A program made the translations under genes and the position numbers. Positions 23,526 through 45,496 of a DNA stretch of 64,000 bases are shown piece by piece (the stretch's first letter is position 1; each line of letters opens with the position of its first letter). Source of the DNA: Diphasiastrum complanatum (Eukaryota > Streptophyta > Lycopodiopsida > Lycopodiales > Lycopodiaceae); contig CM055108.1 in assembly GCA_029204225.1 (NCBI GenBank), positions 16,956,222 to 17,020,221 of the forward strand, in the 5' to 3' direction. Under the pieces are notes generated by a model. It was not told the origin of the DNA. It saw only the letters and a list, made by a program, of their open reading frames with translations, and searched no databases.

Positions 23526-24352
23526 TGTTGAATTTCACATGTGTGGATTATCCACTACATGTACTTGTGATCTCCTAAGGTGTGTAGATGCACCAAGATC
23601 AAGACTAGATTGAGATTCAAGATCTATCTTTGATTCTATGGCAAAAACACACTACTACATGCATTCAATCACTTCCAACTCTCACTCACACGTGTGGGAA
23701 GTGTTCCAAAAGTATTCTAAGTAAAAACAAGCTACTTTTCTCGGATAGAGAGAGAAAAATCATCATGAGCTCTCGGGTAGAGAGAGAAAGCTAGAAATTC
23801 AATGACACTCAAAATCCACTCAATCTCAAAATCAATTAGATCCAAAATGAGGAGTACAATGATACTAGTAGATTCATGAGCTACCACTATGCTTAACTAC
23901 AATTGGATCACACTTTGCCACCTCTTAATCCTATTGGACCATTGATCCATGCACCTCTAAATTCTATTGGACTATATTCAAGCACACCTCAAATTCCTAT
24001 TGGACCACACATGGTTCCACCTCTAAATCCTATTGGACCTCTTAAACTTCATCAAACAAAAGCATTACACTTGTCTACACTCTAATTGGCACAAGTTTGG
24101 CCTCCTACTCTATTTTGGCTCAATAGTGGCATTACAAGTGGAAATGGATAATTTGCCATCTATGCCAAATTTGACCCTATCAACATCCTACACCTAAATG
24201 CTTGACTATGAAATTCTATGAGACCCCTATATCAAACATTTTTATTTGCTTTACAATTCTCCACGCGTGGGAACATCCTCCACACGTGTGAGATTCACTT
24301 ACAAACTTCTATCATAAAAAATACCAAGCTAGATTTTTGCCAATTTCTCACA
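23526..24352 (-). repeat. E6 3' LTR
   Basis: 827 bp, with TGTTGAATTTCAC at the left end and ATTTCTCACA at the right, followed by the minus-strand purine tract (the complement of 24,353-24,372). It holds a CCAAT-repeat array (23,903-24,085) and two CACACGTGTG palindromes (23,687 and 24,281). Confidence 0.85.
23903..24085 (-). repeat. CCAAT-containing repeat array in the E6 3' LTR
   Basis: Four or five imperfect units of 25-35 bp built around CCTATTGGACC (CCAAT box on the minus strand), each followed by a CACCTCTAAAT-like word. The same array occurs at 26,905-27,087 and in the E7 LTR. The plus-strand Pro-rich ORFs here are by-products. Confidence 0.75.
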
Positions 24353-24478
24353 CTCCTCCTCAAAAAATAGCTTGGAAAGGTACTAGATCACTTGAGAAGT
24401 TTGTAAATCTTTTTGATTGGATCCTTTGGTATGCATAAGAAGTGAAGATCAGCCAAGGGATCCATCATAGCAGCACCC

Positions 24479-25440
24479 TCACCATATCCATGATAAGATC
24501 TCTTTGGTAGAGATCTCTTGCCAATGCCTTTGAAGAGTGCTCCACCAATATGCCACTATGATCATGGGCTTCCTCCATGCTTGATGATGATATTTGCTTT
24601 GGAAGTTCCACTTGCATGATGGATGCACCATAAATAGAGAAATCTGAGGCTTCCTAGCCTCATAAGGATCATGGAGATCAAGATCATAAGATGTGAAATG
24701 ATGATTATCAAGATTATGCTTTCTAGCTTGACTAGTCCACATACAATGAACTATATCCATGATGGATCTAATCTTGATATCAAAGACTATCTTGATCTTT
24801 TTTAGGCTAGTTAATCTCTCAAGGATGTAAGTGTCCACTTTGGATGCTTCACTTAATCTCAAGAGGAGTTTACAATTTGCCTCAAAACATGTGAAAACAT
24901 GATTTTCAAAAAAGTGAGTACCAAGCTCAATCTTGTTCTTACTAGAATCAAGAGCATACATTTGACAATACAATATCTTGCTTTCAAAAAGTATTGGAAA
25001 CACATCTAAGTCAATAATGACAAGAAACATGTTCATACCATAAGCATCATACAAAACTAGTATAGATTTTTTTGAACTTTGAGATCCAAAAAATTCAATG
25101 AAGCAAGATAGCATTTCAAGCAAAGGAAGAGAAGCATATATGAATGTGTTGTAGTAGATACAACATGAAAGATGTCCCTCTTTGCCATGTAAGGTGAGCC
25201 ATAAAGACTTGGCCATGCATCTTGAAAATCTTCTTGAAATCATATGAAGAAGAAACTCCTCCTCACACCTTGGCCCCATCATAACTTGAATACCTTCAAA
25301 AAAGATAACTTGTGATGCTTCTTGAGAAGCCTTGATCTCGGCCACTTCCAAGATTGAATCTTCATGCAATGTGACATCTCTATTCACAATCACTTTTGAA
25401 GTAGAGAGTGTAAAGACACTAAGTATACGGTCTTCTTGAC
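24479..25440 (-). pseudogene. E6 unknown ORF (about 304 codons) fused to an integrase tail
   Basis: The open frame begins with the signature found just after Copia integrase (V-I-V-N-R-D-V-T-L-H-E, about 25,395-25,365) and then runs about 290 residues without any RT motif. I do not recognise this part. It has hydrophobic segments (S-I-L-V-L near residue 110) and alternating polar stretches, and looks like a folded protein rather than a random ORF. Two blocks resemble the C-terminal region of the E9 ORF: a G-x-Q-S-S-x-x-S-I-L-V-L block and an F-T-C...C-K...S-E-A-S-x-x-D-T block. It is frame-shifted relative to gag/protease, so as it stands it would not be made as a fusion. Confidence 0.55.
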
Positions 25441-26454
25441 TCCATCATAAGGCAAAATAGATGAAAAAGAGTGCTTGGAGCCACACATATGTGAAGATGC
25501 TCCACTATCAATATATCATGAGTCATCCTTGTTGAAGGTGGAAGAGGAGAAGCTTGATGCCATAAGAGAGCCTTCTCCATCACTTGCAATATAGTCTTCT
25601 TTCTCATTGGTGATGTTGGCTTGATTGAGTTGATTCTTCTTCTTGAAGCAATTGGTGGCATAATGGCCTTTCATGCCACAATAAAAGCACTTGATCTTCT
25701 TCTTCTTGAGATTTGAAGTAGAAGCATGAGAGGTATCCTCCTCCTCCTCTTCATCTTGGTCTTTAGCTTTGTCATTAGAGAAGTGATGGTGTTTCTTCTT
25801 ACTCCTCTCTTTGTGCTTGGCAAATAGAACTTTGCCATCATCATGATTGAGTAATAGCTTGTCCATCCTCAAGAGTTTGTATTCTTGTCTTGATTCTTCA
25901 GAAATAAGCACACTTTGAAGGGCCTCCAAACTTGGTAGCTCCTCCTTAATGGCATAAGATAGGACAAGGTTGTCATATTCATCTCTCAAGCCATTGAGAA
26001 TGACTTGGACTAGCTCACTTTGATTGATTGAGTAACCAATACATGCAAGCTCCCTATGAATATCCGTGACTCTCAAAACATAACTAGATGCACTATCATC
26101 ACTCTTTTGACTACTTTGGAAGATTTGATTTCTAAGAGTGAGGAGCCTAGAGGTGTTCTTAGCCTCATAGATGGACTTGAGACAGTCCCAAGCTTCCTTG
26201 GATGTAGCACAATCACCAATCTCCCTCAATATCTCATCAGAGACATTCATCTTAATGTAGTGGAGAGCCATCCTAGCTCTCTTCTTGTATTTTTGTACTT
26301 CTTGAAGGACTTGAGGCTCCTCCTCAATCCCAAGTACAATGTCCATCACATCTTGGAGTATCAAGATGGACTCCATCCTCAACTTCCATATTGAATAATT
26401 GGAAGTAGACAATCTCTCACTTGGTTGCAACAAGTATGAACTCATTGAAGTCAT
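25441..26454 (-). pseudogene. E6 gag, ending in a stop just before the protease motif
   Basis: Open from ATG 26,454 to a TGA at 25,518-25,516 (312 codons). It holds the UBN2-type gag domain (residues about 1-220), a basic K/E-rich linker, and a zinc knuckle C-F-Y-C-G-M-K-G-H-Y-A-T-N-C near residue 263. The TGA stands where relatives have Trp before the protease site; the following residues still read D-S-G-A-S-S-H-M before the frame closes near 25,400. Gag itself is intact, so particle assembly protein could still be produced if it were transcribed. The start is fixed by similarity to the E9, E10 and E19 gag. Confidence 0.8.
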
Positions 26455-26722
26455 GTAAAGTGGAGATAAATAAAAGTGATGAACAAAAAATGTTGCTTCT
26501 CTCTCACTATAGGATCCAATAATGGTGTGCTACCATCTCCTATGCAAGATCTTGCAACAAACTGTGAGATGATTCTCACTAGCTATCTCAATCTCTCCAA
26601 AACTAGATCTACTTCACATCAAATGATGGAGTATGAGCAAATTTAGGATCAAACACTCTTAGCACGTGTGAAATACACTAAGAAACCAAATTTGACTCAA
26701 ATACAATGATATTGCATGAAAC
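26455..26722 (-). other. E6 leader; PBS and inner LTR end deleted
   Basis: Between the gag start and the remaining 5' LTR. No PBS-like GCTCTGATACCA is present, whereas about 190 bp of LTR that exists in the 3' copy is absent. The deletion therefore removed the LTR end and the PBS. Confidence 0.6.
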
Positions 26723-27354
26723 AAGTAAAAACAAGCTGCTCTCTTGTGTAGAGAGAGAAAAATCATCATGAGCTCTCGGGTAGAGAAAGAAAGCTAGAAA
26801 TTCAATGACACTCAAAATCCACTCAATCTCAAAATCAATTAGATCCAAAATGAGGAGTACATGATACTAGTAGATTCATGAGCTACCACTATGCTCAACT
26901 ATGATTGGATCACACTTTTTCACCTCTTAATCCTATTGGACCATTGATCCATGCACCTCTAAATTCTATTGGACTATATTCAAGCACACCTCAAATTCCT
27001 ATTGGACCACACATGGTTCCACCTCTAAATCCTATTGGACCTCTTAAACTTCATCAAACAAAAGCATTACACTTGTCTAGACTCTAATTGGCACAAGTTT
27101 GGCCTCCTACTCTATTTTGGCTCAATAGTGGCATTACAAGTGGAAATGGATAATTTGCCATCTATGCCAAATTTGACCCTATCAACATCCTACACCTAAA
27201 TGCTTGACTATGAAATTCTATGAGACTCCTATATCAAACATTTTTATTTACTTTACAATTCTCCACATGTGGGAACATCCTCCACACATGTGAGATTCAC
27301 TTACAAACTTCTATCATAAAAAATACCAAGCTAGATTTTTGCCAATTTCTCACA
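26723..27354 (-). repeat. E6 5' LTR, truncated on the inner side
   Basis: Copy of 23,718-24,352, including the CCAAT array (26,905-27,087). The outer end ATTTCTCACA is intact and abuts TAAAT. Some CG positions of the 3' copy are TG or CA here (for example ACACATGTG versus ACACGTGTG), as expected of methylated DNA. Confidence 0.85.
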
Positions 27355-35614: not shown

Positions 35615-36261
35615 TGTGAAAAATACAGATCCTAAGTGGATCTAAACTCCAAGATCATTGGCTTGAATGCTTGCACTCCAAACTACATAAGCTAGGAATT
35701 GGCAACACATTCTATGCTACCTAGAATGCAAAGAACTTGATCAAAAAGCATTTATCACAAATGGAAACTTCCATAAACATCAAGTGCGGTCCAAAATAGC
35801 ATTATACAGTCCATAATACATCAGCCTACCACTTTTGGAAAGCACCTAAGATCATACACACAAAGCTTGAACTCAATCACTACACAATGCCAACAATGGA
35901 AGGAGAACCCAATAGAAAAATCTCTCATTAAGCAAATGAATACAATGGATCTGCTCCAACCTGTTTCTCCACGGCCTACCTGCTATATATAGCTGAGAGA
36001 GATGACTCTCTCTCCTCTCTCTAGACCCTCCTTACCTAAAATATGCCCTATATAGGTAAAATTGGCATATATGTCCAAAATACATGAAAATGGACTCATT
36101 TCGAAGGTCTTGAAGTTTGACACTTCTTCATACTGAAAAAATACACTTACTAAAAATATCTAGACCTGTTTCACACGTGTGAAAAGTCAGATCCTAAACT
36201 ATGTGCCATTTTTAGCAATTTTGGCCTAAAACTAGACAAGGAAATGTTGACAATTTTCACA
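35615..36261 (-). repeat. E9 3' LTR
   Basis: 647 bp with perfect 8-bp inverted ends TGTGAAAA/TTTTCACA. A TATATATA core lies at about 35,990 and CACACGTGTG at 36,172-36,181. The left flank is GATCCACC; the target duplication cannot be checked because the other LTR is truncated. Confidence 0.92.
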
Positions 36262-36274
36262 CTCCCTCTTCAAC
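36262..36274 (-). promoter_or_regulatory. E9 polypurine tract
   Basis: The minus strand reads GTTGAAGAGGGAG directly before the LTR start TGTGAAAA. It is the primer for plus-strand DNA synthesis. The gag-X stop codon lies immediately upstream. Confidence 0.8.
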
Positions 36275-39200
36275 TTAACTTGCTAGTTTTACAACACTAC
36301 TTTGTTCCAACTTAAAAATGATCTCCATCATCAGAATAGATCTCTTCTCAAGGATCCTAATATGTACAAAATAGGACACAACATAATTGATATAGATAAT
36401 AGTGTCCATATAGGATGCTTCACTATTTCTTACATCAATTTTACATAGAATCATAAAAATGGTACATGTAAAAGAACATAGAATCTCAATTAATGAATTC
36501 CTCCATGTATCCATCTCTGGTTTCTCTGTAAAATAGCAGCAAACAAGTTGTAAATGAAAGTGATCAACAAGTGTTTGCATGCCTCCTCCACATTTCACTA
36601 TACATATAGTGAATGCAACATGTATCTCCATGAATGAACTTCCATCACCACCTTGCCTTTGTAGATCTTCAATCCATGAAAGCCTTTGAGTGAATGAATG
36701 CCAAAAAGATGTGTTCCCTACTCCATTTGAATGACCAAAACCTGAACTTGAAATACTTGAAGTACCTCCACAAGATTTGCACACAACGCTTGATCCTACA
36801 ATGTCAACAAGTTGCCAATTTGCCAACACTAGAATACTAGATCTTGAACTTTGTTCAAAAGAAAACATATTGACCACTTCAATACCTTTCAAGATCTGAA
36901 TGAATTCATGTACTTGATCATACAAACCAGCAATGATAACTATTCCATCTCCAAGATCCAAAGGATGCAAAACTATGGAACTAGTTTTATTGAAATTTGA
37001 CAATTTCAACACATTGACATAACAATGTTCATACATGAGATTAGGCAAGTGAGGTAGAGTAAGAAGACACTTCCTTGCAGCTCCAAAGACCTTACTTGAA
37101 CCTTCAAGAACCTGTAAAAACAGATCCAAAATGCCTTGACCATTTGTCTCTTCTTTGATGCTTTTCACTAGCTTCGAATTGCCACTTGTCTCTTGGTGTT
37201 GATGAAGCAATCCAAGATCAACCTCTTGATCTTCCAATAAGACATCAAAGATCTTGCATATGTGAACATCTTCAGATCTGAAACTCTGAAGATACTCCCT
37301 CTCAAACACATGATTAAGATCCCACAAGATCTCATCAATGCTCAAATTTGACCCTTCACTATAGTTAGTGAAAACAATGCCACCATCATAAACCAAAAGA
37401 TAGATTCCAACATTTCCATTTAACATGAAGTAGAGTAGGTGAAGATGAGTATCAAACCTAATCAAAACAGCCCTCTTGAGTTCATAACAAACCTCAATAA
37501 GCTCACCAATGATATCTCCCTTGCCTTGAAGAAGTTGCCACTTGAGTTGCTCCATGTAGTCTTCTTCAACCAACCTTTTGCCATCTTGACCATGAATGAA
37601 CAATCCACCACAATCATAGAATGCTTTGAGTTGATGAAGAGATGTTAGATCCATGCTTTGGATCTTCCCAAGAACCACTCTTCCATTGCCCTTTCCTTCA
37701 CAAGACTCCCTCTTAATGCTAGCACCACAAAAGTTAGAAACCTCCCTCTTGATAGTTGCACCATAAGAAGTAGAAGACTCTTGAATATTAGAAGCCAAGA
37801 AAAGAATCCTTAGTACCTTCAACATAAGAGTGATTGAAGTACTCTCTCTTTTCAAACATGAACTTCTACTCAATGATTTAGGTAATGAGTCATATGATAA
37901 TGATTCTTCCTCACTATCGTTCATAAAAACATCATTCAAAGTACATCCTACTTTGAACACTTCACATACTTCTCTTCCTTTTGACTTGTGATCTCCCTCA
38001 CCAAGTCTCATGATAGAAACCTTTGATCTACTCTTTTTATGAAGAAATGTGACACCACTTGTTGCACAAATGACTTTATCACAAAAAGATGTAAAAGAAC
38101 CATTTCCTTCAAGCATGCTCAAAGCACCATCATCTTTTCCCACATGATTACATACATCAATATGAAAAGAATTAGAAGAACAACCATCTTCTTGCAAAGA
38201 ATGACACTTAGCATCTCCATCTTTTTCCATATGAACAAACAAGTCATTAGCAACAATCACTTCCAAAGAAGAATCTTCATCAACTCCATTGATGAAGTTA
38301 GCTCCTTCCTTACCTTTTCCATTTTTGCACTTGCCATCTAGCACCATTGAAGAACCAACAAGCCTTGGAAGTCCATGAGTAGAAGAGTACAAACATGATG
38401 CTAATTTAGCTCCACATGACTCCATATGACTAGTAGGTAACACTAGTGCATCTTCAAGATCCAATGGATCCAAAAAATTGACCATAGATTCACCAAAGCT
38501 TGCCAAGTTAGCACAACAATTATCATCTCCAAGAAGTACATTAGATCTCAACCTAGATCTAGCATTTTGTTTCTTATGGCATTCATTTGCAAAATGTCCT
38601 TTTATCCCACAATAAAAGCACTTGAACTTTGACTTATTGTTCTTAGTAGAAGAGGAAGAGGAAGAGTGATCATCATGATCAAAGTTACCACCTTTGGACC
38701 ATTTCCCTTTGCCTTTACCTTTGCCCTTGAATTTGCCTTTTGTGAAGAAAGCCTCTTCACCTCCACCTTGCAAGGATGCACCATCAAGCTTTGATTGCAA
38801 CCTATGTTCTTCAGCCAATAAGATTTCTTGCAAGTCAACCACACTTGGCAAGACTCTTTGAATGGCAAAACTTTTCACAAGGTTAGCATGTTCATTTAGC
38901 AAACCATTCAACATAACTTGGACTATTTCACCATCTTTTATGTTCTCATCAATGCATGCTAAATCATCACTTAGGGACTTAACTCTCAAGATAAATGCAT
39001 GAGCACTTTCACCCTCTCTTTGCCTACTAGAAAATATTTGTCTCCTTAGGGTCAATACCCTAGATGTGGACTTTGATTCAAAGAGCTTCTTTAAGGCATT
39101 CCATGCCTCACTTGCACTTTGACACTTTCCAACTTCCTTGAGAAGTTCATTTGTAACATTCATTTTAATGATATGAAGAGCCCTTTTGGCCTTCTTATCA

Positions 39201-39367
39201 AACCTTTGTTGCTCTTGAAGTGTGAGAGGTCTCTCTTCAATTTCTGCAACTATGTCCATGAGTTCATTCAACTCAAGTAAGGACTCCATCCTCACTTTCC
39301 AAGTAGAGTAGTTTGATGAACTCAACCTTTCACTAGACTCTAGCATGATCCCACCATTGGAAGCCAT
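36275..39367 (-). CDS. E9 gag fused to a ~765-residue domain of unknown function
   Basis: 1030 codons without a break. Residues 1 to about 200 are a Copia UBN2-type gag domain, close to those of E1, E6 and E10. Residues 208-226 are a Gly/Lys-rich basic stretch. Residues 250-263 form a zinc knuckle (C-F-Y-C-G-I-K-G-H-F-A-N-E-C). From about 270 to 1030 there is no protease D-S-G-A, no integrase triad and no Y-V-D-D. Residues 270-580 look flexible, Ser- and charge-rich, with repeated G-A-x-I-K-R-E words. Residues about 580-1030 look globular, with hydrophobic strands and conserved-looking blocks such as Q-S-S-R-S-S-I-L-V-L. Part of this C-terminal region resembles the unknown ORF of E6. The ORF ends 13 nt before the LTR. 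The intact frame over 3 kb in a region full of decayed genes indicates recent or continuing selection. The function of the extra region is unknown; capture of a host gene is one possibility. Confidence 0.85.
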   Translation of the reverse strand: MASNGGIMLESSERLSSSNYSTWKVRMESLLELNELMDIVAEIEERPLTLQEQQRFDKKAKRALHIIKMNVTNELLKEVGKCQSASEAWNALKKLFESKSTSRVLTLRRQIFSSRQREGESAHAFILRVKSLSDDLACIDENIKDGEIVQVMLNGLLNEHANLVKSFAIQRVLPSVVDLQEILLAEEHRLQSKLDGASLQGGGEEAFFTKGKFKGKGKGKGKWSKGGNFDHDDHSSSSSSTKNNKSKFKCFYCGIKGHFANECHKKQNARSRLRSNVLLGDDNCCANLASFGESMVNFLDPLDLEDALVLPTSHMESCGAKLASCLYSSTHGLPRLVGSSMVLDGKCKNGKGKEGANFINGVDEDSSLEVIVANDLFVHMEKDGDAKCHSLQEDGCSSNSFHIDVCNHVGKDDGALSMLEGNGSFTSFCDKVICATSGVTFLHKKSRSKVSIMRLGEGDHKSKGREVCEVFKVGCTLNDVFMNDSEEESLSYDSLPKSLSRSSCLKRESTSITLMLKVLRILFLASNIQESSTSYGATIKREVSNFCGASIKRESCEGKGNGRVVLGKIQSMDLTSLHQLKAFYDCGGLFIHGQDGKRLVEEDYMEQLKWQLLQGKGDIIGELIEVCYELKRAVLIRFDTHLHLLYFMLNGNVGIYLLVYDGGIVFTNYSEGSNLSIDEILWDLNHVFEREYLQSFRSEDVHICKIFDVLLEDQEVDLGLLHQHQETSGNSKLVKSIKEETNGQGILDLFLQVLEGSSKVFGAARKCLLTLPHLPNLMYEHCYVNVLKLSNFNKTSSIVLHPLDLGDGIVIIAGLYDQVHEFIQILKGIEVVNMFSFEQSSRSSILVLANWQLVDIVGSSVVCKSCGGTSSISSSGFGHSNGVGNTSFWHSFTQRLSWIEDLQRQGGDGSSFMEIHVAFTICIVKCGGGMQTLVDHFHLQLVCCYFTEKPEMDTWRNSLIEILCSFTCTIFMILCKIDVRNSEASYMDTIIYINYVVSYFVHIRILEKRSILMMEIIFKLEQSSVVKLAS

Positions 39368-40527
39368 GATTCTAATGTTTCTTCAACTTTTAGGTTCTGT
39401 CCTAAAGCACTTAGCACTCACTTTTCTCTCAACAAATGATAGATAAAGAGATCTATGAAGATTTAGGACCCTAAAACACTTCTATCTTGAACCTAGATGG
39501 TTTCCAAGCATAGAAAGGAAGATTGAAACACATGCAACACTTTGCACACACTAAGAATGGATTACAAAATCAAACCAACCTGAACACACTCTTGCTTAAG
39601 CTCTCAAACTTTCCATCAAGTGACCAAATCAAGTTATGGTGTGAAGAGTTACTTGCATTCTTAGAAAATACCCAAAACTAGGATGCCAAGATTACCTAGT
39701 AATGAACAAACTTGATCAACATATGATCACCACACTAAGATATTGATTCAACCTGTAAAACCACATGTAAACCACACTTCTAAAAGTTTATAAACTCCAG
39801 CAAGTGATAAATACAAGATTTAGAGGTGAATGAATGAGCACACTTAGTGAATCACAAGACTAGCTTCACTATCTTGTCAAATCTTGGTGTTTAGATGTAG
39901 ATCTAAGATCACTTCACATGAGAATGTTCCTCAACCTGTTAAGAACCTGAAAACACACTTGCATAATGGTTAACACCTTCCAGCAAATGCTCCAATCAAA
40001 TTACATAAGGAGAGTTACTTACATGCTCAACAAAGTACACCAAAATTTATGCCAAAATTGATGACAATCTTTACAATATGCTCTTCACAATGGAGCTTAC
40101 AATATGTTCACCCAAAAAAGGGGATCTTTCATCCAAATGGGAGCTTTGCTCAGCCTTTAGGAGAATTACAACTCACTCAAAAGATCATTTGTCATCCACT
40201 TAAGGAGAAGTTTCATCCACTTAAGGAGAGTGTTCATCCAAGAATGGAGATTGTCAACAATAGGATTGAAAAGAACATTGTTAGTATTGAATATGCACAA
40301 GCCTCACAATCACAAATGATTAGGTGTTATGATCTGATCCAAAATAGTTTCTTTTCAGCCTCTGATCTTCAATAGACCTGAAATATGCTTTTGATCCACA
40401 AGTTCAACTCACAAAACAAAGGTTAGTAAGATTTGATCAACAAAGCAATGCAAAATCATGCTAGAACTTGATCAAACATCCAAATATCACCAAAAATGGA
40501 ATACTTACTGTAAATAGAAGCCAACCA
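39368..40527 (-). other. E9 leader, 1.16 kb, with internal repeats
   Basis: Untranslated leader between PBS and gag. It contains a 21-bp tandem repeat (TCATCCACTTAAGGAG core, 40,193-40,250) and diverged duplicated segments around 39,590-39,830 and 39,930-40,030 (AGAGTTACTT and CCAGCAA words). A 108-codon antisense ORF (40,049-40,375) exists because of the repeat. It may hold packaging signals, but this is inferred from position only. Confidence 0.65.
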
Positions 40528-40539
40528 GCTCTGATACCA
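40528..40539 (-). promoter_or_regulatory. E9 primer binding site (tRNA-iMet)
   Basis: GCTCTGATACCA directly against the LTR end; the reverse complement, TGGTATCAGAGC, is an exact match to the plant Copia initiator-Met PBS. Confidence 0.92.
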
Positions 40540-40975
40540 TGTGAAAAATACAGATCCTAAGTGGATCTAAACTCCAAGATCATTGGCTTGAATGCTTGCA
40601 CTCCAAACTACATAAGCTAGGAATTGGCAACACATTCTATGCTACCTAGAATGCAAAGAACTTGATCAAAAAGCATTTATCACAAATGGAAACTTCCATA
40701 AACATCAAGTGCGGCCCAAAATAGCATTATACAGTCCATAATACATCAGCCTACCACTTTTGGAAAGCACCTAAGATCATACACACAAAGCTTGAACTCA
40801 ATCACTACACAATGCCAACAATGGAAGGAGAACCCAATAGAAAAATCTCTCATTAAGCAAATGAATACAATGGATCTGCTCCAACCTGTTTCTCCATGGC
40901 CTACCTGCTATATATAGCTGAGAGAGATGACTCTCTCTCCTCTCTCTAGACCCTCCTTACCTAAAATATGCCCTA
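40540..40975 (-). repeat. E9 5' LTR, truncated on the outer side
   Basis: Copy of 35,615-36,050 with two differences (at 40,714-40,716 and about 40,896). The outer 211 bp, including the CACACGTGTG box, are missing. The TATATATA core (about 40,911) is kept, about 60 bp from the break. Confidence 0.92.
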
Positions 40976-41583: not shown

Positions 41584-43413
41584 ATGGCATCTATAAATGC
41601 ATATCTTTTGGATACTAATGAAAGGCTCAACAAAACTAACTATTCCATATGGAAAGTTAGAATGGAATCTATCATGATCATGCAAGATCTGATGGAAATT
41701 GTAAATGGTAAGGAGGGTGAACCTATTCATCCTCAAGAAAAAGCCAAATACATCAAGAGGTGCAATGTTGCACTACATTGCATAAAAATGAATGTTGCAA
41801 ATGAACTCTTAAGAGAGGTAGGAGATTGCACTTCAGCTCAAGATGCTTGGGAGACTTTGCAAAAGGTCTATGAATCCAAGAACCAAACTAGAATGTTAGC
41901 TTTGAAGAATCAAATCTATAGAAGCTATCAAAAGAAAGGAGAGAGTGCACATACTTTTGTCCTAAGAGTAAAAGAATTGAACAAAGAGCTAGCCTTTATA
42001 GGTGAACCTATCAACGATGAAGAGCTTGTTCAACTCATATTGAATGGACTAAGCTTTGAATTTGACAATTTGGTTTAGGGATATGCAATTATGGGTAAGC
42101 TACCCATACTTGAAGAACTCCAAGGCACGCTCATGGCCGAGGAATCAAGAAGGAGCCAAATGCAAGAGAGGATGGATAGGCTTTCCATCCAAGGTGGAGA
42201 TGACCAAGCTCTCTTCACCAAAGGCAAAGGCAAGTCCAAAGGCAAAGGATCAACATTCAAGAAGTCTACAAAGCTTGAGGATCAAGAAGGACCCCCAAAG
42301 GCATCTCCATCAACCACCAAAGTCAAGAAGGACAAATCAAAGGTGAAGTGCTACTATTGTAGCAAGATGGGGCATTATGCCTCGAAATGCTTCAAGAGGA
42401 AGCAAGATCAAAGCCAAGCCAACAAGAGCAAAGAGGAGGAGGAGGAGAGTTCACATGAGGACTCTCTCATGATGTCCATATTTTCTTCAACAAGCTTCAA
42501 AGGAGAAGATCCTTGGTGGATTGACTCGGGTGCTAGTTCACACATGACTAGTAAAAGGGAGTTTTTCTCTTCTCTCTTATCTTATGATGGACCTATAAAG
42601 TCTATCTATACAGCAAATGATGAAGCTTGTAAGATTGAAGGAGTTGGTAGCATTCCCCTTTGCTTAGGATCTTCCAAAAAGATCAACATAGAAGGTATTT
42701 TGTACATTCCTACAATAACAAAGAATCTACTAAGTGTTGGCCAAATGGTAGACAATGGTTTCAATGTTGACTTTGCTTCAAATGAATGTTTCATCAAGAA
42801 GAAGGGTAAGATAGTGGCTAAGGGCACTAGACTTGGCAAACTTTATAAGCTGGATGCATTTGTGGATACTAATGTTGTCATGTTGGCCGAGAAGAGCAAG
42901 ATATCTACCTTTACTTTATGGCACAAAAGACTTGGACATGTCAACTCGGGTTCCATGGAGGCTATGATCAAGGAGGAGTATGCTTTAGGCCTACCAAGGT
43001 CTATTGGGAAGGAAGACAAGGTTTGTGAAGCTTGTGCCTTATCCAAGGCACATAAGAAGGTGTTTCCTAACTCCATCACAAAGTCATCTCATCCTCTTGA
43101 ACTCATACACTCGGATGTGCACATTGTTAGCACCAAATCTAATGGAGGTTCATCCATGTTTTTAACCTTCATTGATGACTACTCAAGATATTGTTGGGTG
43201 TTCTTACTTTCCTTCAAGTCTCAAGTATTTGATACTTTTGTAAAGTTCAAGTTGTTTGTGGAAAAGCATCATAATCATAGCATCAAGATTCTTAGAAGTG
43301 ACAATGGTGGAGAATTCATCTCCAATGAGTTCAAGGCCTTTTGTGAGGAGGAAGGGATCAAGAAAGAGACTTCTTGTCCTTACACTCCTCAACAAAATGG
43401 AGTTGCGGAATAG
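41584..43413 (+). pseudogene. E10 gag, protease and integrase (5' part of gag-pol)
   Basis: One frame with a single in-frame TAG at 42,076-42,078 (codon 165, end of the gag domain). In order: UBN2-type gag (residues 1-200); basic linker with K-G-K-G-K-S-K-G-K-G; zinc knuckle C-Y-Y-C-S-K-M-G-H-Y-A-S-K-C near residue 255; protease W-W-I-D-S-G-A-S-S-H-M near 312; pre-integrase zinc domain (W-H-K-R-L-G-H ... C-E-A-C); integrase core with H-S-D-V, R-S-D-N-G-G-E-F and N-G-V-A-E. The frame is lost at about 43,405-43,411 within the triad region. Polyprotein design (gag and pol in one frame) is usual for Copia. Confidence 0.88.
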
Positions 43414-45496
43414 AACATTATGTGAATGTTCTAAGGCTTTAAGATTAGATGCTTGTTTGCCCAAATCCTTTTGGGGTGAGTCTCTTGTATGTGCAAACTA
43501 CTTGATGAATAGGGTGTCTTGCAAAGCAATTGAAGGCAAAACTCCATATGAGATGTTGTATGGAAAGAAACCCAATCTTAATCACTTGAAAGTTTTTGGG
43601 TGTATATGTTATGTGCATGTGCCATTGGAAACAAGAACCAAGGAGGATCCATCTTCCACAAGAGGGATCATGCTTGGATATGCAAGCTCAAGCAAGGGCT
43701 ACAAAGTCTATCTCCCATCCTTGAACAAATTTGTTGTTTCAAGGGATGTCATCTTTGATGAACATCATATGCATATGCTTGAAGAAGGCTCAAGTGCTCC
43801 AATAATCAAGAAGAAGATGGCCGAGGAGCAAGATCTTGGTTTTGAGGAGGAGCTCATGGAGGAGCAAGCACCAAACCCACCTATCACACCAAGGAGATCT
43901 TCAAGGGCAAAAGTGGAGCCATCAAGGCTCACATATCAAGGCAAAGGACAGCAAGTTGAGGGTATATCATCCACTTCTTATGCTTTATCTAGTTTTGAAG
44001 AACCGTCTAATGTTGAAGATGCATTGAACTCCAAAGAATGGTATAAAGCTATGTTGGATGAGTATGATGCCTTGATTGAGAATGAAACTTGGTTGCTTGT
44101 TGAGAGACCTCAAAGGAATGTAATAGGATGCAAGTGGGTCTTCAAGCTTAAGTTGAATGCAAATGGGAGTGTTAACAAACATAAAGCAAGATTAGTTGCA
44201 AAAGGTTATGCTCAAGAGAGAGGGATAGACTATGAGGAAACTTTTGCACCCGTGGCCAAGATGGTCACAATAAGACTAATCATTGCACTTGCATCACATT
44301 TTGGATGGATTCTATGTCAAATGGATGTCTCTAATGCTTTCTTGAATGGTTTTTTGGAAGAGGATATCTATATGGAGCAGCCACAAGGGTTCATCAAGCA
44401 TGGAATGGAGAACAAATCTTGGAATTCAAGACTACATTGCTATCTTATTTCACTTTCTTATGTTCAAAGTGAATATGATCCCACTCTTTACATTAAGTTT
44501 GATGATGTTGGTATTGTACTTTTACTCATTTATGTAGATGACATCATCATTAGTGGAAATAGTTTTGATGGTATTGAAAAAATCAAAATAGATCTATCCT
44601 TAGAGTTCAAGATGGTAGATCTAGGGTGTCTTCACTTCATCTTAGGCATAGAAGTACTTAGAGGGTCTGATTTTATCTTTATAAGTCAAGTAAACTATGC
44701 TCAAAGTCTTTTGAAGAAGTTTAAGATGGAAGTATGCAAAAGTGTTGACACACCAATGGAGCAAGATGTAAAAGTGCCAAATGAAGATGATGAAAGATCC
44801 TTCATGGACATCACTTTGTTTAGGCAACTTATAGGTTCCTTAATGTGGATCACTATAACTAGACCAGATCTTAGCTTTAGTGTATGTAGGTTGAGCCAAT
44901 CCATGCAAAAGCCATTGAATATCCATTGGAAAAAGGCTAAGAGGATTCTAAGATACATCTCGGGTACATTGGATTTTGGGATTCTATATAGAGGAGATGT
45001 GATTAACCTTCATGCATTTAGTGATTCAGATTTTGCAGGGGACAAGAGGGATAGGAAATCAACAAGTGCCTATTCAACTTTCATAGGAGAAGGTGTGGTT
45101 TCATGGCTTTCAAAAAAGCAAGAAACTATATCTCTATCTTCAACCGAGGCCGAGTACAAAGCTTTGACAACCACTACAAAGGAGGTACTTTGGATCAAGA
45201 GATTATTGGTGGAACTAAAGATCATGGATTCAGAGGAGGCACCAATCATCTACAATGACAATATATCAGCCCAACACCTTGCATCTAACCCAATCTTCCA
45301 TGCAAGATCTAAGCACATTGAGATATGCCATCACTTTGTGAGAGAAATGGTGCAAGCCAAGGAGATTGCTTTGGAGCATGTTCCAAGCAATGAATGTGTA
45401 GCTGATCTACTTACTAAACCACTTCAAAAGACACCTTTTATGAAGTTCAGATCATCACTTGGAGTGATTAGTAAAGCAATGATTGAACCAAGCTAG
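43406..45496 (+). pseudogene. E10 integrase tail, RT and RNase H (3' part of gag-pol)
   Basis: This continues the polyprotein in another frame, open to a normal stop at 45,494-45,496. Visible blocks are K-T-P-Y-E-M-L-Y-G-K-K-P, V-V-S-R-D-V-I-F-D-E, W-V-F-K-L-K, D-Y-E-E-T-F-A-P-V-A-K-M, catalytic Y-V-D-D-I-I near 44,535, S-L-M-W-I-T-I-T-R-P-D, and RNase H with F-S-D-S-D-F-A-G, S-S-T-E-A-E-Y and N-D-N-I-S-A-Q. Between F-I-K-H-G near 44,400 and S-W-N-S-R the usual S-L-Y-G-L-K-Q-A-P-R stretch is missing, an in-frame deletion of about 13-16 codons. Apart from the frame change and this deletion the region is clean, so inactivation is recent. Confidence 0.88.

Follow-up and report, generated by a model that had tools for sequence, protein, structure and literature searches.

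A young Copia satellite in Diphasiastrum complanatum whose frame continues through an apparent pol remnant

The window analysed here is a stretch of 64,000 nucleotides from the genome of Diphasiastrum complanatum (C17:16956222-17020221), which measures 1.74 Gb. It contains a Copia element, E9, whose single open reading frame (ORF) does not end after gag but continues for another 760 codons (residues 271-1030), referred to below as ext. We propose, with a probability of about 0.6, that E9 is a satellite of Copia elements in which ext would be a remnant of pol, kept as a stop-free translated spacer, while gag would be refreshed from an autonomous partner. This proposal draws on the comparison of E9 with a related family, family C, in which the frame of ext stays open while its amino acids appear to drift without detectable constraint.

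The frame of ext is open, with no detectable constraint on its amino acids

A preliminary description of this DNA had noted an intact ORF of 1030 codons with a Copia gag and zinc knuckle and with its stop 13 nt before the 3' long terminal repeat (LTR), and this was confirmed. Not a single stop is present in the 760 codons of ext, as compared with a mean of 50.6 in 300 dinucleotide shuffles, and the other five frames of ext hold 36-80 stops each. A chance ORF was rejected, as none of the shuffles fell below 35 stops. The in-frame codon-likeness, trained on coding regions of the window, was +0.04 to +0.13 per codon up to about residue 760 and near zero thereafter, but the support from it is weak because frame +1 scored equally high or higher around residues 310-509.

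The ext of E9 was compared over 631 codons with that of L038, a family C copy. The three codon positions had diverged to nearly the same extent (0.249, 0.233 and 0.235; chi2 p-value of 0.77), whereas in gag the corresponding values were 0.202, 0.164 and 0.469 (262 codons, p-value of 2e-16). The flat pattern of ext was found even where nucleotide identity was 0.83-0.91, and one 60-codon interval gave 0.13, 0.12 and 0.03. The ratio of non-synonymous to synonymous substitution rates (dN/dS) between E9 and L038 was 0.13 (0.06-0.20) for gag and 0.79 (0.64-0.96) for ext. A dN/dS comparison of the two parts had been proposed in the preliminary description; it did separate them, but the value for ext is one that fits neutral drift with rejection of stops. 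Comparable ext values were obtained between E9 and L039, a second family C copy (0.80, 0.63-1.01), in the 426 well-aligned codons (0.78, 0.56-1.12), and between E9 and a further related family, family B (0.85, 0.63-1.13). Between families B and C, the ext ratios were 1.28 (0.84-2.17) for L031 and 1.46 (0.92-2.66) for L033, which has one stop. Furthermore, dS amounted to 0.40 for ext but to 1.65 for gag, which is consistent with separate histories of the two parts.

Neutral simulations in which stops were rejected gave mean dN/dS values of 0.93, 0.86 and 0.77 at kappa 1.5, 2 and 3, respectively, with equal divergence of the codon positions, and 7%, 28% and 63% of the runs were at or below 0.79. 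Since the observed ratio lies within what neutral drift and stop rejection would produce, it argues against a conserved amino-acid sequence, but not against a function that requires only an open frame. Without stop rejection, the simulations accumulated on average 14.6, 14.4 and 12.6 stops per lineage, and none of 150 runs per kappa remained stop-free; a simpler model gave a mean of 9.6 stops and 0/500 stop-free runs. The alignment gaps point in the same direction. Of the 14 gaps between the E9 and family C ext DNA, 11 are multiples of three (binomial P of 7e-4 if one third is expected), and the remaining three (11, 4 and 5) sum to a frame-keeping change. The gap controls were small: four gaps in non-coding DNA, none of them a multiple of three, and five in a more diverged LTR pair, one of which was of length 3. 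The earlier suggestion that the frame is held open beyond chance was therefore borne out by the absence of stops after the divergence from family C; 57 of 59 scored E9 copies are also stop-free, which alone could reflect youth.

The centre of ext resembles a reverse transcriptase

No Pfam family was listed for residues 271-1030 at E<=10, a search in which the HMMER filters drop most weak matches. The ORFs of the related families likewise gave no Pfam match above the cut-off within ext, apart from one weak Peptidase_M43 hit in L041 (E of 0.29). A search of the PDB with ext returned no match, and IMG/VR contained no ext homologue; for gag, two pattern hits were obtained there, neither of which was confirmed. 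An AlphaFold prediction for ext alone was uninformative (mean pLDDT of 31.9).

The first hint of a reverse transcriptase (RT) came from a local comparison (E of 0.018). When ext was aligned with six pieces of pol by the Smith-Waterman method, the RT pieces alone stood out: the E9 scores were beaten by 0/300 and 2/300 shuffles, and those of the L038 ext were reached by 3/300 and 10/300. For one piece from the integrase (INT) end, 14/300 shuffles reached the E9 score. Profile-profile comparison with hhalign of ext (5 rows) and RT (14 rows) gave a score of 44.9 (P of 4.5e-5), as compared with a mean of 16.3 and a maximum of 23.0 in 60 column shuffles (0/60); with L038 as the first row, the score was 40.7 and the shuffles reached at most 22.6. 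Nothing was found with hhalign when ext was compared with the INT (33 rows) and RNase H (RH, 29 rows) profiles. INT and RH profiles run over all six frames, and RT profiles over the non-ORF frames, gave no score higher than the top one among 600 shuffles. In a plain RT profile search, E9 scored 6.1 bits against a maximum of 5.4 in 1000 shuffles.

Direct alignment with the pol of L045, the autonomous partner described below, gave 144 for the E9 ext (shuffle mean 71.3, maximum 107.5, 0/300), spanning ext positions 16-647, and 141 for the L038 ext (shuffle maximum 113.0, 0/300). Since local alignment always yields collinear blocks, their order outside the RT proves little. The RT core extends from YMEQ to IDEI (E9 residues 605-681, counted from 1). 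Within it, LLVYDGGIV of E9 stands at the position of LLLIYVDDII in the partner, and the catalytic pair has therefore been lost. A piece resembling the INT-RT linker, which was chosen after the alignment of ext with the partner pol had been viewed, was detected in L038 and L039 (0/400 shuffles each) but not in the E9 ext (202/400). As it is located downstream of the RT block, a rearrangement is suggested.

From these alignments, we regard the centre of ext as a dead Copia RT devoid of its catalytic motif. Most of the remainder apparently is decayed pol as well, with another origin for the other two thirds being possible. The preliminary description had reported no pol motifs in ext; this holds for the catalytic motifs, but a degenerate RT segment is present at residues 598-691. 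That description had also set beforehand a match of the extra region to a Copia pol domain as evidence against its own interpretation, namely capture of a host gene or a new protein specific to the element. Such a match was found for residues 598-691, whereas the other two thirds match nothing. Given the resemblance of the centre to Copia RT and the ext dN/dS of 0.79, that interpretation is not supported, and we consider the reading of ext as a new protein unlikely.

Structure of the window copy and age of the family

The window copy of E9 comprises the following features.

35615..36261, minus strand: 3' LTR, 647 bp, TGTG...CACA
36262..36271, minus strand: polypurine tract (PPT) GAAGAGGGAG, shared with L009 and with L045, the autonomous partner
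36275..39367, minus strand: single ORF, gag and ext, 1030 codons, uninterrupted
36278..38557, minus strand: ext, residues 271-1030, open frame with no constraint detected on the amino acids; decayed and rearranged pol is the best reading
37295..37576, minus strand: degenerate Copia RT block, residues 598-691, YVDD lost
38558..39367, minus strand: gag part, residues 1-270, Retrotran_gag_2 at 27-192
38579..38623, minus strand: CCHC zinc knuckle, residues 249-263, Pfam zf-CCHC
39368..40527, minus strand: leader (5' untranslated region, UTR)
40528..40539, minus strand: primer-binding site (PBS) TGGTATCAGAGC
40540..40975, minus strand: truncated 5' LTR, 436 of 647 bp remaining, TATATATA stretch present

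The stop codon occupies 36275-36277. The Retrotran_gag_2 match has an E-value of 1.9e-22, and the zf-CCHC match one of 0.0035, slightly below the curated Pfam cut-off. The PBS presumably pairs with initiator tRNA-Met. The 5' LTR lacks its outer 211 bp, and its remaining 436 bp differ from the 3' LTR by two mismatches. E9 has the structural features of a Copia element, i.e. a Copia-type gag, a PBS, a PPT, TG..CA LTRs and a 5-bp target-site duplication (TSD); unlike L045, it has no intact protease (PR)-INT-RT-RH series. In the leader, a short tandem repeat with a 21-bp unit (2.3 copies) was observed at 40192-40240.

E9 is a young, large, multi-copy family, its youth having been surmised in the preliminary description. 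A complete copy, L042, measures 5572 bp and has identical 647-bp LTRs and a 5-bp TSD, CATTC; its ORF also has 1030 codons and differs from that of the window by 2 nt. Eight loci (L001-L008) were compared, L001 being the window itself; their ext sequences depart from that of the window at 0-2 of 2280 nt, and the 3' LTR is 647 bp long in 8/8. Two of these loci probably represent one insertion: L005 has the flank of the window locus and is probably the same insertion on another contig. The genome copy count that had been called for was provided by an exact 49-nt ext probe with 564 matches; exact-probe counts include alternative contigs of one locus and miss diverged copies. In a search with residues 271-1030, all of the best 59 of 19111 candidates were reported as 100% identical. 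The best 150 of 4696 candidates for a 96-residue ext query were all identical and open over those residues. Duplication of a locus and its surroundings, either within a chromosome or involving small contigs, was noted for L005 (C232) and for the C23 and C4/C1179 pairs (L046-L049). As some loci occur twice with flanks, the copy counts are somewhat inflated. An apparent open frame of 4330 amino acids at C7:33110933, which adjoins a run of N at L044, was taken as an artefact.

An autonomous partner and two gag tracts

L045 (C1:532000-540500) contains one ORF of 1317 amino acids with Pfam matches to gag, Pol_BBD, gag_pre-integrs, rve, SH3_retrovirus and RVT_2. What we take to be the RNase H motif was found in it by string match. 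Its LTRs differ by 3 mismatches in 545 bp, and no ext is present. From the PBS onwards, L042 matches L045 with an identity of 0.99-1.00 in each of 19 successive 100-nt segments covering the leader and gag, and this identity stops at about gag nt 770-788, just before the end of the knuckle. Over the first 780 nt of gag, L045 differs at one site from L042 and at two from the window copy. The LTRs of E9 and L045 are about 85% identical, and the PPT, the PBS and the first LTR bases match. A probe from the window gag had 2689 exact matches, almost five times the number for the ext probe.

Two different gag tracts occur among copies that have ext in common. In L003, ext differs by 1 nt, but a tract around gag (about -150 to +760) is only 78% identical to the window; 40-nt segments within this tract were 0.50-0.93 identical, as compared with 0.95-1.00 for the flanking segments except the first of the alignment. 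A probe from this second type of gag had 255 matches. These comparisons indicate that E9 is a non-autonomous satellite of a Copia element, and the mosaics would be the expected trace of template switching between co-packaged RNAs.

Related families carrying ext

Ext occurs in three arrangements in this genome, E9 being one; in family C it is found behind gag-PR, and in family B it takes the place of the RT. In family C, L038 has one ORF of 1195 codons that consists of gag, Pol_BBD (E of 1.8e-24) and then ext to the end. L039 is like L038, whereas L037, L040 and L041 are broken or partial. Residues of about 287-339 of the E9 ORF, close to the start of its ext, have their counterpart in family C towards the end of ext (80% DNA identity, 145 nt), which shows internal shuffling of ext.

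Among the best 40 of 2486 candidates for family B, which is chimeric, 38 were 97-98% identical to the probe, besides the chimera and one near-identical place. All seven copies studied (L030-L036) match the C-terminal 320 residues of ext, with an amino-acid identity of about 40-42%, and several have broken frames. A near-identical LTR-like pair bounds 5/7 copies, a gag in the same orientation lies upstream in 4/7 and an RNase H ORF downstream in 4/7; the assignment of the integrase part is based on ORF strings and not on Pfam. This layout places ext in the position of the RT. A gag-related element to the left of the window, L009, contains 302 bp with 72.8% DNA identity to ext. At positions 1-9301 of L009, two related Copia copies face opposite ways and have long arms that are nearly identical; in one of these copies, an ext-like stretch has replaced the RT.

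Proposed mechanism

Why a dead pol should remain open is a separate question, and here our answer is tentative and somewhat short of an even chance: satellites may be selected for the open frame itself, surveillance of long 3' UTRs forcing translation up to the 3' LTR, so that dead pol persists while gag is renewed by template switching. PR, INT, RT and RNase H would be supplied in trans by the autonomous partner, and gag would be refreshed during the copying of satellite and partner RNAs within the same particle. If translation ended directly behind gag, the 3' UTR would grow by about 2.3 kb, and the genomic RNA would become liable to nonsense-mediated decay (NMD). Copies acquiring a stop in ext would leave fewer offspring, and selection would remove the stops; the role of ext would not be enzymatic but that of a translated spacer free of stops. 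NMD has been reported to be triggered in plants by long 3' UTRs (PMC3711448), and in retroviruses a gag stop far from the 3' end of the RNA reportedly makes it an NMD target (PMC6277124). Other causes could be envisaged: an early stop might end translation that is coupled to packaging, and a Gag tail for which only length matters would give the same pattern. The sparing of the RNA from NMD by translation up to the LTR is the reason we prefer.

Several observations weigh against our reading of E9. The preferred role of NMD is a proposal made from sequence. The upper bound of the ext dN/dS of 0.79 is just below 1, and only 7% of the neutral runs reached this value at kappa 1.5, so that weak constraint at the protein level is possible. 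L038 and L039 were selected because they are open; since an ancestral stop would be present in all copies, this choice does not create the result. Among the best 88 of 21065 family C candidates scored, 56 were stop-free in the matched part and 32 had 1-2 stops, and six pairs among these 88 have the same stops and frame length. In the two pairs that were compared, the stop position is common and the copies are 99.7% identical over the whole 2.75-2.8 kb, which for the C23 pair includes about 450 bp beyond the end of an assumed 650-bp LTR. With near-identity over all of the DNA compared, duplication of a locus or of a contig appears to account for these two pairs better than inheritance of the stops through transposition. 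The second non-autonomous Copia element of the window (23719-27354) does stop soon after gag, and the comparison with an autonomous partner involves one copy, L045. As regards the RT, the plain profile search gave 2.1 bits for L038 and -0.5 bits for L039, not above shuffles. The score of the RT core (86 against a null of -9.3, sd 9.9) was obtained with anchors taken from the alignment, and the choice of the linker piece is open to a similar objection. When the flanking parts of ext were compared with pol on their own, the N-terminal and C-terminal parts were matched by 50/300 and 39/300 shuffles for E9 and by 75/300 and 17/300 for L038, and were thus not significant by themselves. Extensions from the RT anchors were also weak (left and right, out of 400 shuffles: 4 and 116 for E9, 39 and 19 for L038, 21 and 46 for L039).

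Alternative explanations

Ext could instead be a fast-evolving functional protein, such as a Gag tail or accessory factor for which length and composition count but sequence does not, or a positively selected one. The preserved frame, the dN/dS upper bound of 0.96, a dN/dS of 0.34 between L038 and L039 in the middle third and the weak in-frame codon-likeness up to about residue 760 would fit this idea. Yet divergence is flat over the codon positions, with position 3 the least diverged in the 60-codon interval mentioned above, dN/dS rises to 1.28 and 1.46 between families B and C and to 1.68 between L038 and L039 in the last third, and there is no Pfam match above the cut-off and no PDB match; we therefore judge this explanation unlikely. 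Capture of a host gene (transduplication) seems to us highly improbable. Residues 271-597 and 692-1030 contain no recognisable pol, and the frame is long and open, but the centre matches Copia RT and the family C ext has the INT-RT linker-like piece. No LTR-free homologue was seen among the best 59 of 19111, 88 of 21065 and 150 of 4696 candidates, lists that were filled by element copies.

It is also conceivable that E9 is an ordinary gag-only satellite with terminal repeats (TR-GAG) in which the additional ORF is of no significance in itself. E9 does share two LTRs, one GAG ORF and mobility without pol with such elements as they are reported (PMC9784723, PMC8704663), and an Arabidopsis TR-GAG ORF of 562 amino acids, which exceeds the 270-residue gag part, may also hold extra codons. 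What this account leaves aside is the presence of 760 stop-free codons past the knuckle, open in two families that are a quarter diverged, and we give it a marginally smaller chance than gene capture. Youth alone, with ext derived from a recently coding pol and too little time for stops to arise, is the least probable of these explanations. The extreme youth of the window family (0-2 of 2280 nt among eight loci) is in its favour, but the E9 and family C ext differ in about 24-27% of their nucleotides and both are open, no lineage simulated to about this divergence without stop rejection remained stop-free, and 11/14 of the gaps between them keep the frame; for the E9-family C pair, this explanation is thus contradicted.

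Comparison with known systems

Large retrotransposon derivatives (LARDs) are non-autonomous, LTR-bounded elements with a non-coding interior that are mobilised in trans; in E9, by contrast, the interior forms a single open frame, and its gag is subject to strong purifying selection. The TR-GAGs of plants are reported to have two LTRs and one ORF encoding GAG and to be mobile without pol (PMC9784723, PMC8704663). As in these, E9 has two LTRs, one ORF with a Copia GAG (L042), no functional PR, INT, RT or RH and, as judged from the identical LTRs and TSD of L042 and the 564 exact probe matches, recent transposition (PMC8704663). E9 differs in that its ORF is not limited to GAG: another 760 codons follow, apparently decayed pol that includes a degenerate RT block, and the stop comes 13 nt short of the 3' LTR. 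A further difference is that an identical or nearly identical ext is combined with different gag tracts. Compared with L045, the PBS, leader and gag of E9 are 99-100% identical and the PPT and LTR start are the same, but L045 has PR, INT and RT by Pfam and the RNase H motif, and its LTRs are about 85% identical to those of E9. Rous sarcoma virus and MuLV are reported to face the same NMD problem at the gag stop, the former relying on sequence downstream of this stop and the latter on readthrough (PMC6277124), whereas in E9 the proposed solution would be to have no stop at all. No open but unconstrained ORFs in satellite elements are described in the titles and abstract openings of the open-access literature searched. 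We thus view E9 as a young TR-GAG-like satellite of a known kind, the unusual aspect being that a dead pol has apparently been retained to serve as a spacer that is translated and free of stops.

If this is true, selection on a reading frame would be separated here from selection on the protein, two things that are usually joined, and the element would provide a natural sequence record of the strength of RNA surveillance on transposon RNA. One genome would also display satellite-helper compatibility, with gag and leader nearly identical to those of the helper while the rest decays. Long intact ORFs in satellites would then be no evidence of new proteins unless a codon-position test is applied.

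Other Copia elements in the window

The non-autonomous Copia element at 23719-27354 has LTRs that are 97% identical and a gag at 25516-26454, followed by the start of a protease and a stop. A separate ORF of 304 amino acids (24479-25393) begins, as judged by eye, like an integrase end, and the rest of it was not recognised. Compared with the E9 ext, this element gave a single match of 26 amino acids (E of 1.4). At 41584-45496, the window contains a nearly complete Copia element of another family, the frame of which is split and which lacks 16 RT residues, VCHLQRSIYGLKQASR, that are present in L030.

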